Source: an uncultured Clostridia bacterium
GTDB taxonomy: Bacteria; Bacillota; Clostridia; Oscillospirales; Acutalibacteraceae
NCBI GenBank assembly: GCA_947623505.1
Contig: CANQGT010000005.1
Coordinates: 1 to 64,000 of the forward strand
Length of the DNA: 64,000 nt
Direction: 5' to 3'
The notes under the pieces are model-generated. The model did no database searches. It saw only the letters and a program-made list of their open reading frames with translations, and was not told the DNA's origin. Within the stretch, counting starts at the first letter, position 1. Every line of letters begins with the position of its first letter. Of this stretch, positions 11,077 through 60,034 are shown one piece after another. The position numbers and the translations under genes were made by a program.

Positions 11077-12555
11077 TTAAAGAATTATGCAGATAAGACC
11101 GCTGCAGCCCTCGTTTATAACTCGCTCAATCGTTTCTCTGAACTTGTTTCTCGCGTCGGCGGGCATTCTTTCAAGTTTTCCGTGCAGTCCCTCGTTTACG
11201 AGCTCGTGCAGAGACTTGCCGAAAATATCCGTATTCCAAAGATCGGCGGGATTCTGCTCGAATTCCCGAAGCAGATACATAACAAGCTCCTGCGACTGGC
11301 TTTCGCTGCCGACTATCGGCGCGACCTCGGTATAGGTATTGCATTTTATCATATGTATTGACGGAGCCTGCGCCTTGAGCCTTACTCCGTATCTGCCGCC
11401 CTGCTTCATTATTTCCGGCTCCTCAAGAGTAAGCTCTCCTATATCGGGCATAACGATGCCGTATCCCGTGCGATCAACCTCGGAAAGGGCGGCCGCGAAG
11501 CGAAGATAATCGTTTTTCATTGCCGTGAGAGCGATTATCTCTTTCATAAGTTCCTTTTCGTTTGAAATGGAAACGTTGCATTCTTTTGAGAGAATGGAGT
11601 AAAAATAACTGCTGTCTATTGAAATTTTTATGCTTATGCTCCCGTCGGAAAGATCGAGATCCGAAACCGAAAGACTTTCAATATCCTCATTTTCTGAAAG
11701 CCTTTCGGCAAATTGCTTAACGCTCCTTATGGTGCTTACGTCGGTGCAGCATTCCTTTACCGTTGAAAACAGCCTTACCTTCAGTTCATTCTCGCTGTCA
11801 AGGCTTTTTATCCACGATGGGAAATTCAAAGAAATGCTTGTTACCGGAAATTCATAAAGCACCTTTTCCAAAATGGCGTTGATTTGGTCTTCGTCAAGCT
11901 CAAGGCAGTTTGCCGGAATAACGGGGACATCATATTTGGCGCTGAGAGATTGGCACAAAGCCGCCGCGTCTGCGCTTTCGGGCTCAACGCAGTTCATCAC
12001 AACTATAAAAGGCTTGTTAATTTCCTTGAGCTCGTTTATTACCCGTTCTTCTGCCTCTTCATATTCTTCACGCGGAATAGTGCTTATTGAGCCGTCGGTT
12101 GTGATAACAAGTCCTATAGTGGAATGCTCTTTGATGACCTTCTGCGTGCCAATCTCCGCGGCCATATTGAACGGTATCTCCTCCTCAAACCAGGGAGTGC
12201 GCACCATTCTCGGCTGATCTTCCTCAATGTAACCGACAGAGCTTGGAACGATATAGCCCACGCAGTCTATAAGCCTTACCCTGAAATGAAGATTATCCTG
12301 CATTGAAAGCTCGATGGCTTCCTCCGGAATAAATTTCGGCTCGGTCGTCATTATCGTTCTTCCCGCGGCGCTCTGAGGAAGCTCGTCGCGCGCTCTTTCT
12401 TTTTGAAATTCTCCGCTTATACGCGGTATAACAAGATTATCCATAAAGGATTTTATAAAGGTTGACTTTCCCGTTCTTACAGGGCCGACAACACCTATAT
12501 AAATATCTCCCTGAGTTCTTGAAGAAATATCGTTGTATATGCTCAAATCGCTCAC
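11077..12555 (-). CDS. spoIVA: Stage IV sporulation protein A (spore coat basement ATPase)
   Basis: SIYNDISSRTQGDIYIGVVGPVRTGKSTFIKSFMDNLVIPRI; whole-length SpoIVA pattern. Confidence 0.97.
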   Translation of the reverse strand: MSDLSIYNDISSRTQGDIYIGVVGPVRTGKSTFIKSFMDNLVIPRISGEFQKERARDELPQSAAGRTIMTTEPKFIPEEAIELSMQDNLHFRVRLIDCVGYIVPSSVGYIEEDQPRMVRTPWFEEEIPFNMAAEIGTQKVIKEHSTIGLVITTDGSISTIPREEYEEAEERVINELKEINKPFIVVMNCVEPESADAAALCQSLSAKYDVPVIPANCLELDEDQINAILEKVLYEFPVTSISLNFPSWIKSLDSENELKVRLFSTVKECCTDVSTIRSVKQFAERLSENEDIESLSVSDLDLSDGSISIKISIDSSYFYSILSKECNVSISNEKELMKEIIALTAMKNDYLRFAAALSEVDRTGYGIVMPDIGELTLEEPEIMKQGGRYGVRLKAQAPSIHMIKCNTYTEVAPIVGSESQSQELVMYLLREFEQNPADLWNTDIFGKSLHELVNEGLHGKLERMPADARNKFRETIERVINEGCSGLICIIL

Positions 12556-12558
12556 TCC

Positions 12559-14013
12559 TTACATTCCCGGTATTAAAAGAATACGTCTTGCCGAAATTAC
12601 GTCGTCAGTAAGTTCGTTTTCGGTTTTTATAAGTTCCGCGGAGGTTCTGAATTTTTTCGCAATATCCCAAACCTCTTCATTTTGATTTGCGAAATAAACA
12701 ACAAGCGCGGGAGAATCGGGCATCGCCTTATCGGTCTTTTTGATTTCCGAAACAACATTAAATGTTTTTTCCTCAAATTTAACCGCCATATATTCAAGCA
12801 GATACCGTATTCCTATTTCACTTTCGGAATTTATAACATAGTCAAAAGATTTAACGAATACGGACACGGCGCTGCCGTCTATCGTTTCAATATCCTGCCT
12901 TTTGCTTATGCAGACGGGTTCGCCGTCCGTGTTTCTGACAAACGCCGTAAGTTCAAGACTTTTTGCGTCGCAAATGCAAAGAGAAATATCCAAAATCTCA
13001 GATATTTTAATATTTTCAAATCTGAATGAGGCTTTTCCGCTGGCAGAGTCGTTTATAAATTCGCCGTTTGTGGCGAGTGATATCTTGCTCATAGCGTTAT
13101 TGATCTCATTATCCGTTGCGTAAGCGTCCGTCGTCAAAAGCGCGGAGGATTTTCTGTAAACCGAAACGCCGATATTTACGTCTCCGATGATTTCAATTAT
13201 TTTCAGTTCGTTGTTTTTATCAGCTTTCGGCTTAACGTAAATATTGCCCTGAGCAAGATCAACAAGCGCGTTGTCGCCCTCGTCAATTTCGTTTATATCG
13301 ATTATTTTACTGATTGAAACCGCTTTTTCGCATTTTCTGATAATTTCTTTCTCGGTGTCCGTAGTATAAAGAATAGAAAATTCGGCCACGGCCTTAACAA
13401 GCATTTTATTCTTTATGATTTTCGTTTCCTCGCAGTGAAGATTTGAGAATACGTTGATTATTTTTCTTACGGGATCACTGTCGGACGGAATTGGCGTTTC
13501 TTCGTCAAATTCTCCCCTTGCGAAGGCCGAACCGATAAGAGAGATATAATTCACACCGTCGTGCCTTATGAGGATATTTTCGGCGTTTTCAACCATATTT
13601 ACAGGTGTGCAGGCATAGAGGCGGACGTTCAGCGCAAAAGCGTTATGAATATCAATCCTGCGTTGATTTATCACTCTGAAATTACTGTATCTGTTCATTA
13701 CAAGTATATCGGAGCATATCTCTTCATAACCGCCCTCAATATTTATGCTTTTTTTGAAATCCTCCTCAAAATCCGCCGTAGTCAGGCAAGACGAAGTTTC
13801 GCTTACGTAAGTCAAAAATATTTTCGACTTGCCGTAAACGGTCAATACCCCCGAAGAATAATCCGTATTAACGATATAATTGTTGATGCTGCAGCGTATG
13901 ATTTTCAGCATATCCTCGTTATACGCCATAAGATTTTCCTGAAAATCAAGGTCAACATCAACACATTTCGCAAAAACGCAGCATTTTTCTTTGATCTCTC
14001 TTACATTTTCCAT
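12559..14013 (-). CDS. sipL: DUF3794 (SPOCS)/LysM-like protein, SipL-type SpoIVA-interacting protein
   Basis: Repeated DUF3794-like segments with a degenerate C-terminal LysM (EEVWDIAKKFRTSAELIKTENELTDD...LLIPGM); 3 nt upstream of spoIVA. Confidence 0.85.
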   Translation of the reverse strand: MENVREIKEKCCVFAKCVDVDLDFQENLMAYNEDMLKIIRCSINNYIVNTDYSSGVLTVYGKSKIFLTYVSETSSCLTTADFEEDFKKSINIEGGYEEICSDILVMNRYSNFRVINQRRIDIHNAFALNVRLYACTPVNMVENAENILIRHDGVNYISLIGSAFARGEFDEETPIPSDSDPVRKIINVFSNLHCEETKIIKNKMLVKAVAEFSILYTTDTEKEIIRKCEKAVSISKIIDINEIDEGDNALVDLAQGNIYVKPKADKNNELKIIEIIGDVNIGVSVYRKSSALLTTDAYATDNEINNAMSKISLATNGEFINDSASGKASFRFENIKISEILDISLCICDAKSLELTAFVRNTDGEPVCISKRQDIETIDGSAVSVFVKSFDYVINSESEIGIRYLLEYMAVKFEEKTFNVVSEIKKTDKAMPDSPALVVYFANQNEEVWDIAKKFRTSAELIKTENELTDDVISARRILLIPGM

Positions 14014-14069
14014 AGCAGTTCTCCTTTTATTACGGCAAAGCGTGCTTTCGCAATCTGCCTTACTGCTAA

Positions 14070-14099
14070 AGCATATGCCGAAAAAAAGGCTTATATAAC
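14070..14099 (-). promoter_or_regulatory. Candidate sigma-E promoter for sipL-spoIVA: GTTATAT-15-CATATGCT
   Basis: -10 CATATGCT fits CATAnnnT; -35-like TTATAT; located 57-86 nt upstream of sipL. Confidence 0.4.
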
Positions 14100-14132
14100 A
14101 AAAAGCGGCGTAAATAATTTACGTCGCTTTTT
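14097..14132. terminator. Terminator-like hairpin between spoVM-like ORF and sipL
   Basis: AAAAAGCGgCGTAAA-taat-TTTACGtCGCTTTTT, near-perfect stem with T tracts. Confidence 0.6.
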
Positions 14133-14142
14133 GAATAGGTGT

Positions 14143-14226
14143 TCAGTTGCCGTCTTTTTTTATTTTAAAAATCATTCTCATTATCGGCGCTATAAACTTT
14201 GGTGGATTTATAATTACTACTTTCAC
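14143..14226 (-). CDS. spoVM: SpoVM-like 27-aa amphipathic peptide (MKVVIINPPKFIAPIMRMIFKIKKDGN)
   Basis: GTG start at 14226, GGAGG with 7-nt spacing. Recalled B. subtilis SpoVM (MKFYTIKLPKFLGGIVRAMLGSFRKD) aligns without gaps: shared M1 K2 I6 P9 K10 F11 I15 R17. Adjacent to sipL/spoIVA. Confidence 0.8.
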   Translation of the reverse strand: MKVVIINPPKFIAPIMRMIFKIKKDGN

Positions 14227-14241
14227 AATCATTCCTCCAAA

Positions 14242-14385
14242 TCATTTTTTACAGCACATAATCCCGAGAATGATTACTACAAATGCAAGAATTCTCAGCA
14301 GCCATGATGTCGGCAGGCATATCGCAACGACGCAGCCCACGCCGAAAGCAAGCCATAAGTAATTTCTGCGGCACATCTTTTTCAT
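14242..14385 (-). CDS. 47-aa Cys-rich small membrane protein of unknown function
   Basis: MKKMCRRNYLWLAFGVGCVVAICLPTSWLLRILAFVVIILGIMCCKK: two hydrophobic segments; GAGGTG RBS; its stop is 15 nt before the spoVM-like start. Confidence 0.75.
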   Translation of the reverse strand: MKKMCRRNYLWLAFGVGCVVAICLPTSWLLRILAFVVIILGIMCCKK

Positions 14386-14437
14386 AGGAGTAAACACCTC
14401 GCAAGGCTGTATTTACTACATACTATGAAAAAGCCGA

Positions 14438-15073
14438 TCAATCGTTACTCTGAATCAAAAGAATAATTCCCGAATCAACGGAAATTTCCGCTCCCTCCCC
14501 GTTTTTGAAGTGATTGCTCTGCCCTATTTGATCCCATGGCTCAAGCTCGTAATTATTTAAAGAATAATAAGCACCCCTTATGGAAACGCCGCTCGCTTTT
14601 TGAAGAAAGGCAAAAACGGAAAAATATTCATACTCGCTCGAGTCTATACAAATTCTCTTTTCCACAAGGCAAACACGGTTTTTTTCATCGGCTAATCGGC
14701 AGGATACTCCCCTTTGCCTGCAATATTCAAGGCAAAGCAGATTAGAATAACAATGGTCGAATCTGCCGCCGAGCGCGCAGAATATCTCAATTTCCTTAAA
14801 ACCGCGTTTTACCGCTTCCTTAACGCTGAAAAAGGTGTCCGTATCGTCCTTTTCTATCGGCAGCTCTATTAACTCAAATTCGCCTCGCGGCTTTTCGGAA
14901 GAATCAAAATCACCGATGACAAGATTAGGATAGACACCCGCGCCGAGGCACGTTATATAGCCGCTGTCCGCGGCGATAACGAAATCACCCGATCCGATTT
15001 TTCTTTTTATATATTCGCTGTCTCCCGACGGAGAGCCTGAAACGATAACACATTTTACTTTTTTATCTCCCAT
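14438..15073 (-). CDS. thiN: Thiamine diphosphokinase
   Basis: VIAADSGYITCLGAGVYPNLVIGDFDS, EKDDTDTFFSVKEA, ALGGRFDHCYSNL. Confidence 0.93.
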   Translation of the reverse strand: MGDKKVKCVIVSGSPSGDSEYIKRKIGSGDFVIAADSGYITCLGAGVYPNLVIGDFDSSEKPRGEFELIELPIEKDDTDTFFSVKEAVKRGFKEIEIFCALGGRFDHCYSNLLCLEYCRQRGVSCRLADEKNRVCLVEKRICIDSSEYEYFSVFAFLQKASGVSIRGAYYSLNNYELEPWDQIGQSNHFKNGEGAEISVDSGIILLIQSND

Positions 15074-15948
15074 TCCTTTATATCCTTTACCTCGTTATAA
15101 AGCCGTATGTAACTGCTATGCCTGCTTTCGGATATATCACCCTTTTTTACAGCCTCGATAATTGCGCAGCCCTTTTCGTTGATATGAGAGCAGGAAGAAA
15201 AACGGCACTTACCGAAATACGGCTCAAATTCCCTGAAGCAGTCGAAGAGTTCCTCCTTGCGTATTATCTCTGTTTTCTCCATATCAAGCGATGAAAAACC
15301 GGGGGTGTCGGCAACATAGCCTCCGGCGACGCGGAAAAGCTCGCAGTGTCGCGTGGTGTGCCTCCCTCTGCCGAGTTTTTTACTTGTTTCGCCGGTTTTA
15401 AGAGAAAGACTTTTGTCAATAACATTCAGGAGCGATGATTTTCCAACTCCTGTATTTCCGGTAAAAGCGCAGACCTTACCACGGATAAGGTTTTTGATTT
15501 CCTCCGCCGAGCCCCTGTCCGAATTTGAGCAATGGACGGTTTTAAACCCCGCTTTGGTATAAATATCGGTATATTTACCGTAATCGCCGTCAAGATCGGT
15601 TTTTGTAAAAACAATAATCGGCTCGATTCCCTTTTTCTCGGCTATCGCGGCCATTTTATCGATAATAAAAACATTGACTGACGGCTCTCTCAATGATGAA
15701 ACAATAAAAAGTCTGTCAATATTCGCGAGCGGCGGGCGGACAAGTAGATTTTTTCTTTCAAAAACCTTTTCAATCCTGCAGTCGGCGTTTTCATTTATCG
15801 AAAACTCAACATTGTCGCCGACTACGGGAGTAATATTCATACTTCTGAAATTTCCGCGCAGCTTACATTCATAAACCGCCTCGGCGGCTTCCACATAGTA
15901 GAAGCCGCCGATTCCCTTTATTATTTTTCCGGATTTAAAACTGCACAT
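15055..15948 (-). CDS. rsgA: Ribosome small subunit-dependent GTPase A
   Basis: Circularly permuted GTPase: FTKTDLD, GNTGVGKSSLLN, DTPGFSSLD; Zn motif CxxxxCxHxxxxxC. Confidence 0.95.
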   Translation of the reverse strand: MCSFKSGKIIKGIGGFYYVEAAEAVYECKLRGNFRSMNITPVVGDNVEFSINENADCRIEKVFERKNLLVRPPLANIDRLFIVSSLREPSVNVFIIDKMAAIAEKKGIEPIIVFTKTDLDGDYGKYTDIYTKAGFKTVHCSNSDRGSAEEIKNLIRGKVCAFTGNTGVGKSSLLNVIDKSLSLKTGETSKKLGRGRHTTRHCELFRVAGGYVADTPGFSSLDMEKTEIIRKEELFDCFREFEPYFGKCRFSSCSHINEKGCAIIEAVKKGDISESRHSSYIRLYNEVKDIKEWEIKK

Positions 15949-59039: not shown

Positions 59040-60020
59040 TTATCGTGTTCGACTCCCCTCAGCTATATTAGGATACGCCCGGGCAAAGCCGATACATTCC
59101 CTGCCTCTTAAAATATTTGAGGTGTTGCGAGCGTTGAAATAAACGCGCAACTCGCCGTTGCAATATGTAAGGCAGCAGGCGTAAACGTATTGCGCCATCC
59201 AACCTCCGCCGCTTTCGCACGGCTCAATGAGCGGCTTTACAAAATCAAATTTTACGCCGTCGTCCGAACGCAGAAGCATTATCGCCGAATGGCTTTTTCC
59301 GCCTTTTTCGTAAATTCCGTTTTGCAGAGCTATAAAGCAGTCTCTGAGCCTGTAAACTTTTATACAGCCCGAGCAGAGATTGAGATACGGATTGCATTTA
59401 TTGGGTGAAATAATCGGGCTTTCGCGCGAAATATAACTATCTGTAATATTTTTGCTTTCGGCGAAGTTAATATAAGTCGGCTCGCAAAATCCGCAGTCTT
59501 TTATAAACGTAAGCCCGCAGGAATAATAAAGGCGGTAAGCGTCTCCCATTTTAATCAAAAACGGATTTGAGATGGACTGCCCTCTGCCGTCCGCATCAAA
59601 ACCGCGCGTCTTTTTGATAACGGGAAAAGGCTTGCTCCAATGAACGAGATCTTCGGAAGCAGTAACGAAAATTTCCGATTTCCATTTTCCGCCCACAAGG
59701 CTGAGAGCGTTTCCCAAAAGCGGCTTTGTTCTTTCGTAAAAAAGATAATAAATCCCGCCGATACGGTTTATATTAGGCCGCATGGCTCTTGAAACGATTT
59801 TCTTATCAAGGCTGAAATCAACGCCGTTCTCACCCGAAAAGTGATATACGCCGAAAAAGGTGTGGCAAAAAAGGTGCCATAACCCGTCGTGCGAATTTTC
59901 GGGAGTAATAACGGACGGATCGGCGGCAGTAAAACTTCCGCTGAAATTTTTGATAATAGGATTTTTGCCAAATAGTGAAAATTCGGCGGAGCAAAAATCA
60001 TTAAAGCTAAGGTCAATCAT
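59040..60020 (-). CDS. Putative GH43-like five-bladed beta-propeller glycosidase-related protein
   Basis: FTAADPSVITPE, repeated propeller-like blades (IGGIYYLFYER, MGDAYRLYYSCG, NGELRVYFNARN); adjacent to GH31. Confidence 0.65.
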   Translation of the reverse strand: MIDLSFNDFCSAEFSLFGKNPIIKNFSGSFTAADPSVITPENSHDGLWHLFCHTFFGVYHFSGENGVDFSLDKKIVSRAMRPNINRIGGIYYLFYERTKPLLGNALSLVGGKWKSEIFVTASEDLVHWSKPFPVIKKTRGFDADGRGQSISNPFLIKMGDAYRLYYSCGLTFIKDCGFCEPTYINFAESKNITDSYISRESPIISPNKCNPYLNLCSGCIKVYRLRDCFIALQNGIYEKGGKSHSAIMLLRSDDGVKFDFVKPLIEPCESGGGWMAQYVYACCLTYCNGELRVYFNARNTSNILRGRECIGFARAYPNIAEGSRTR

Positions 60021-60034
60021 AGTAATACTTTGCC

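Follow-up and report, generated by a model that had tools for sequence, protein, structure and literature searches.

We analysed a 64,000-nt stretch of an uncultured Clostridia bacterium (hereafter the window), in which a 47-aa open reading frame, X, lies on the minus strand between thiN and a gene for a SpoVM-like peptide. X reads MKKMCRRNYLWLAFGVGCVVAICLPTSWLLRILAFVVIILGIMCCKK, and both the ORF list and the sequence place it, stop codon included, exactly where the original prediction had put it (Table 1). The predicted ribosome-binding site, GAGGTG, is present 9 nt upstream of the ATG and is conserved across the genus, which supports initiation at this codon. The likely start of SpoVM is the GTG at 14226, which has GGAGGA 6 nt upstream and leaves a gap of 15 nt after X, as predicted; if the alternative ATG at 14232 is used, the gap is 9 nt. 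The SpoVM-like ORF matched NCBIfam model NF033436 with an E value of 3e-6 and 27.1 bits, slightly below the 31-bit cut-off. Its identity as SpoVM, also proposed earlier, is nevertheless safe because of its place (thiN and rsgA on the 5' side, the SipL-like gene and spoIVA on the 3' side), its relatives and the invariant Pro that it keeps.

Table 1. Features of the X-spoVM region in the window.
Feature	Position	Strand	Basis
X, two-helix membrane microprotein (predicted), CD25622 homologue	14242..14385	-	sequence; genus and class comparison
RBS of X, GAGGTG, 9 nt 5' of ATG	14395..14400	-	sequence; kept across genus
SpoVM, 27 aa from GTG 14226 (29 aa from ATG 14232)	14143..14226	-	profile and place
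RBS of SpoVM, GGAGGA	14233..14238	-	sequence
Inverted repeat between A/T runs, probable terminator 3' of spoVM	14100..14132	no strand	sequence
X-spoVM promoter, GTAAC-N16-CATAGTAT, sigma-K-like -35 (putative)	14420..14448	-	genus comparison; sigma rule from PMC3789822
sipL-spoIVA promoter, ATA-N16-CATATGCT, sigma-E-like (putative)	14068..14099	-	sequence; kept in part of genus
thiN, thiamine diphosphokinase, 5' neighbour; final codons contain the -35	14438..15073	-	TIGR01378, 7.5e-40
rsgA, 5' of thiN	15055-15948	same as X	window annotation
SipL-like SPOCS-LysM protein, downstream	12559..14013	-	Pfam SipL, 2.6e-15; LysM
spoIVA, downstream	11077..12555	-	TIGR02836, 2.7e-207

The inverted repeat downstream of spoVM was absent from the list produced by a terminator scan of the window, and the sigma-70 promoter and terminator scans gave results no better than chance. 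In the genus, X, spoVM, the sipL-like gene and spoIVA form a single coat-basement block with two promoter types (window positions 11077-14448).

X is short and hydrophobic, and curated libraries do not contain it, as would fit a chance reading frame. This explanation is refuted by the conservation of X from genus to class, by its place before spoVM and by its dN/dS, and we give it practically no chance of being correct. Intact, stop-free homologues (E < 1e-12) were found in 30 of 36 genomes of the same genus, and four of the six genomes without X were less than 85% complete. According to its named relatives, the genus falls in the Eubacterium coprostanoligenes group; their 48 loci include those of E. 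coprostanoligenes ATCC 51222 and of Clostridium sp. CAG:678. A SpoVM match lay directly 3' of X in all 30 genus loci that were fetched (the window and 29 relatives), and residues A13, F14, G15, G17, P25, W28, R31, L33, V37, L40 and G41 were invariant in the genus alignment. Nonsynonymous divergence was lower than synonymous divergence (pN < pS) in 435/435 genus pairs, with a median dN/dS of 0.15 over the 277 unsaturated pairs and a value of 0.03 against the closest relative, though dS was already high there. By these comparisons of sequence, X is under purifying selection and is a real protein-coding gene. The record that carries one X-type clostridial locus, L240 (JAMPEQ010000006.1), is titled 'Bacteroides sp.' and is probably a mislabelled MAG.

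The two hydrophobic helices proposed for X were recovered by AlphaFold2, which, given 36 genus sequences, predicted helices at residues 5-23 and 27-46 split by a break at Pro25 (mean pLDDT 71.7, pTM 0.39). This model is evidence for two helices and not for how they pack against each other. Across 87 sequences from the wider family described below, Pro25 was conserved in 99%, Gly41 in 95%, Gly17 in 84% and Gly15 in 64%; the family core consists of a GxG in helix 1, a near-invariant central Pro and a Gly in helix 2, all of which X possesses. The mean net charge of the wider family was +0.9 over the last six residues and +2.6 over the first 14, the latter being a rough figure from ends cut at a fixed length. 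Because of this terminal positive charge and the positive-inside rule, both ends of X are predicted to face the mother-cell cytosol. The cysteine richness and CCKK tail that had been described for X hold within the genus and fail beyond it: cysteines are not family-defining, since the average is 2.7 per protein and ten relatives lack them altogether. In roughly a third of the relatives (in f17, f21, f35, f36, f47, f76 and other families), a Glu stands halfway along helix 2, at the place of residue 33 of X, and the window's genus has an Arg at 31 in this helix.

Neither X nor its relatives gave any match above cut-off in Pfam, NCBIfam or the PDB. The best Pfam match of X was to YuiB (PF14068), likewise a small membrane protein, at 14.4 bits versus a cut-off of 27 (E 0.057), and one of 29 family members matched this model. 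DUF6249 was matched by six of the 29 (best E 1.9e-4), which we took as a generic hydrophobic match. X did not match the SpoVM model NF033436. Both are tiny mother-cell membrane proteins of one transcription unit, but SpoVM is a single short helix with an invariant Pro, whereas X has two predicted helices and a different profile.

The original prediction proposed that a partner of about 45 aa with two transmembrane helices would be found before spoVM in relatives, and this proved to be so at the level of genus, order and class. The genus-only X profile was searched against the order, represented by 295 whole genomes. Its 12 best matches in other genera had E values of at most 0.0015, and 11 of them lay directly 5' of SpoVM or a SpoVM-like ORF; SpoVM played no part in finding these matches, so the test is not circular. 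Beyond E 0.0015, chance matches were common. The converse search began at SpoVM, using the NCBIfam model and a broader SpoVM profile, and applied the X profile to the fetched regions. A member of the X family lay directly 5' of SpoVM in 25 of the 38 bacterial families reached in this way, a count that is not independent of the loci because the profile had been refined on matches from them; the first-round profile gave a nearly identical picture. With nine families reached only via X included, the count was 34 of 47. The fetched loci contained no X-profile match at E < 1e-3 anywhere except before spoVM. Divergent yet similar ORFs occupy the same position in f29, f74 and two f26 loci, and the order thiN-X-spoVM-rpmB is repeated in several families. 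When the family profile was run across the phylum, other classes yielded little: three genomes of f172, in which X precedes spoVM, and one weaker case (L123). Judged from these searches, the X family comprises tiny, predicted two-helix membrane proteins encoded just before SpoVM in most clostridial families sampled.

No X was detected ahead of spoVM in f32 (0/12), f51 (0/5), f78 (0/6) or f65 (0/4, with one ambiguous ORF in L081). SpoVM in f32, f51, f78 and most of f65 has no small hydrophobic ORF in front of it, and these families offer natural controls for X function. At its cut-off, the NCBIfam SpoVM model recovered just 3 SpoVM-bearing genomes among 148 of the class, against 130 of 243 for the broader profile (E < 0.003); clostridial SpoVM is probably under-annotated.

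In Clostridioides difficile, RNA-seq showed that spoVM is co-transcribed downstream of CD25622, a gene under sigma-E control that encodes a 50-aa protein of unknown function and was judged unique to the Peptostreptococcaceae (Ribis et al. 2017, PMC5607322). Insertions in CD25622 or in spoVM caused an identical mild defect; the CD25622 insertion was probably polar, and no phenotype of its own could be assigned (PMC5607322). We located the C. difficile family (f81) through the RpoB segment of polymerase structure 7l7b and read its SpoVM loci. The RpoB segment of genome G832 was 100% identical to that of 7l7b, which we take to be the C. difficile RNA polymerase. At locus L200 of this genome, MRNNKSKVLLGILCLATGMAVILSMLLPGWIWSALTALILIGCGALLFFC precedes spoVM and is 50 aa long from that start; we infer from species, place and length, rather than from an accession, that it is CD25622. 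The f81 profile matched the class-wide X profile, which contains no f81 member, with an E value of 3.6e-12, and individual f81 proteins scored 23-36 bits, compared with 10 bits or less for 960 shuffles. The match to the genus-only X profile was weaker (E 9.5e-6).

Thus, since X is homologous to the apparent CD25622, the family is wider than the published view, and the confinement of CD25622 to the Peptostreptococcaceae is corrected. The two proteins are alike in lying directly before spoVM, in length (50 versus 47 aa), in having two predicted hydrophobic helices around LP.W and in profile homology. They differ in that pairwise identity is low and CD25622 lacks the genus-type cysteines and the CCKK tail. 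The original prediction knew of no described function; the family had in fact been reported, as the uncharacterised CD25622 (PMC5607322). Transcription with spoVM in sporulating cells, which had been anticipated for X, is established experimentally for the C. difficile homologue, together with sigma-E dependence (PMC5607322). Among the papers searched, we found CD25622 named in no other one and none on a class-wide family, and a catalogue paper on small proteins does not mention the X-spoVM pair. What was already known is therefore one uncharacterised C. difficile gene, and what is new, as read from the genomes, is the class-wide spread of its family before spoVM.

The spacing between the two genes bears on whether X acts mainly in cis, such that its translation would couple or tune that of spoVM and the peptide would matter little. 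X lies 9-20 nt before spoVM in the genus, and its C. difficile homologue has no separate phenotype, both of which such a mechanism would accommodate. However, the gap ranges from about 1 to more than 100 nt across families, spoVM possesses its own RBS, and the residue-level conservation of Pro25 and Gly41 and the low dN/dS point to the peptide itself. We consider action mainly in cis quite unlikely.

The motif GTAAC-N16-CATAnnnT precedes X in nearly all of the 30 genus loci. In most of them, GTAAC coincides with the final thiN codons. In L016, L018, L021, L027 and L028, however, thiN stops farther away, and all five loci again have GTAAC 16 nt before CATA, which argues that it is a true -35 element. 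AC was present at 16 nt in 43 of 48 CATAnnnT sites in the 48 named loci. Outside the genus, AC-N16/17-CATAnnnT preceded X in 27 of 81 loci, from 17 families, compared with 3 on the reverse strand and a shuffle mean of 2.1; the remaining loci lack it, so the motif is common, not universal. By itself, CATAnnnT carried little information (42 of 83 loci, against 33 when the reverse strand was read); the signal came from the two blocks together, with AC at 16-17 nt. The genome-wide count of the exact motif GTAAC-N16-CATANNNT says little, because a backwards control was nearly as frequent (2 versus 3 copies).

In C. difficile, one mapped sigma-E promoter is ATA-N16-CATATATA, and AC stands at -35 in a sigma-K promoter (PMC3789822). 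By this rule the AC at -35 makes the X-spoVM promoter sigma-K-like. Among the sipL-spoIVA sites of the genus loci, 12 of 20 had ATA at 16 nt and none of 20 had AC, and we infer that this promoter is probably sigma-E-like and that of X-spoVM sigma-K-like. Genes for both factors are present in the genome; sigma-E has GISQSY where sigma-K has GISRSY. A later timing of X-spoVM would be unsurprising, given that in B. subtilis spoIVA is switched off by SpoIIID and spoVM stays on for longer (PMC517825). Lineages may differ in the factor that they use, since the CD25622 promoter, GTCTA-N16-CATAAACT compared with GTAAC-N16-CATAGTAT of X, is sigma-E dependent. In the window's lineage, putative mother-cell sigma control of X-spoVM is read from promoter motif and spacing, and the RNA data are those of C. 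difficile.

The only other GTAAC-N16-CATAGTAT of the window's genome (C11, promoter 60001-60029) lies about 30 nt before the start of a 39-aa, CGC-rich, one-helix ORF, MGCGCNNGCNGSSWVIILIIILLLCGGFNNNDGCGCGCN (L262, 1352-1471, minus strand). This ORF matched nothing above cut-off in Pfam or NCBIfam and brings to mind YjcZ-type sporulation peptides.

A sigma-K-like, and so possibly late, promoter and a short hydrophobic hairpin are what one might expect if X were a membrane-active peptide of the late mother cell, involved for example in lysis or permeability, that merely shared the promoter with spoVM. Its matches, sub-threshold and scattered, were to families of membrane proteins, a type I toxin and a holin family among them. 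X is tightly locked to spoVM over many families, and the C. difficile pair is controlled by sigma-E, not sigma-K. This role is highly improbable.

Our preferred reading is that X, a member of the CD25622 family, is the first gene of a mother-cell X-spoVM unit whose product is a hairpin that assists the SpoVM/SpoIVA(/SipL) basement; we regard it as having an even chance of being right. X and spoVM would be read as a two-gene unit in the mother cell, with X first. The product may insert as a helical hairpin with its turn at Pro25 and its basic ends toward the mother-cell cytosol, and the GxG and Gly41 may pack its helices, or several hairpins, together. It would share the outer forespore membrane with SpoVM, and the earlier proposal that the two act together there is plausible. 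X might then help to anchor, space or stabilise the SpoVM/SpoIVA(/SipL) coat basement as an accessory, partly redundant factor, a role suggested by the mild phenotype of the C. difficile mutant and by the SpoVM-bearing families without X. We count in favour of this role the place next to spoVM, with no X-profile match elsewhere in the fetched loci at E < 1e-3, the dN/dS, the promoter, the homology to CD25622 and the sigma-E-controlled co-transcription of that gene with spoVM, the two predicted helices, the conserved Pro25, Gly17 and Gly41, and the adjoining sipL and spoIVA. Against it stand several SpoVM-bearing families that lack X and, to our knowledge, B. subtilis, which manages well without a known X homologue. 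In addition, the CD25622 insertion, though polar, resembled the loss of spoVM alone (PMC5607322).

Alternatively, X could regulate FtsH or another membrane protease and thereby set the right level of SpoVM or SpoIVA complexes. Small membrane proteins often regulate larger partners, but we saw no sequence or genomic link between X and a protease, and we think such a function unlikely. B. subtilis SpoVM reportedly interacts with FtsH (Cutting et al. 1997, as cited in PMC11364881). The assisting role preferred here resembles that of C. difficile SpoVQ (CD3457), a membrane protein that is induced in sporulation and linked to SpoIVA and SipL; SpoVQ is set apart from X by its description as bitopic and Peptostreptococcaceae-specific (PMC8265636).

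Bacillus has ten coat morphogenetic proteins, and just two of them, SpoIVA and SpoVM, have counterparts in clostridia (PMC5607322). Together with the locking of X to spoVM in most clostridial families sampled, this makes X a serious candidate for the coat machinery still missing from the clostridial inventory. More broadly, X might be a widespread clostridial SpoVM partner that helps to explain why SpoVM is essential in Bacillus yet nearly dispensable in C. difficile, and the Oscillospirales-type pair might be run by sigma-K after SpoIVA/SipL, which would change the order of coat-basement assembly from that of the textbook; we offer this combined view as a speculation with little probability behind it. 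The profile built here fills a gap in Pfam and NCBIfam, which contain no model of the X family, and the promoter split between a sigma-E-type sipL-spoIVA and a sigma-K-type X-spoVM is a testable prediction.
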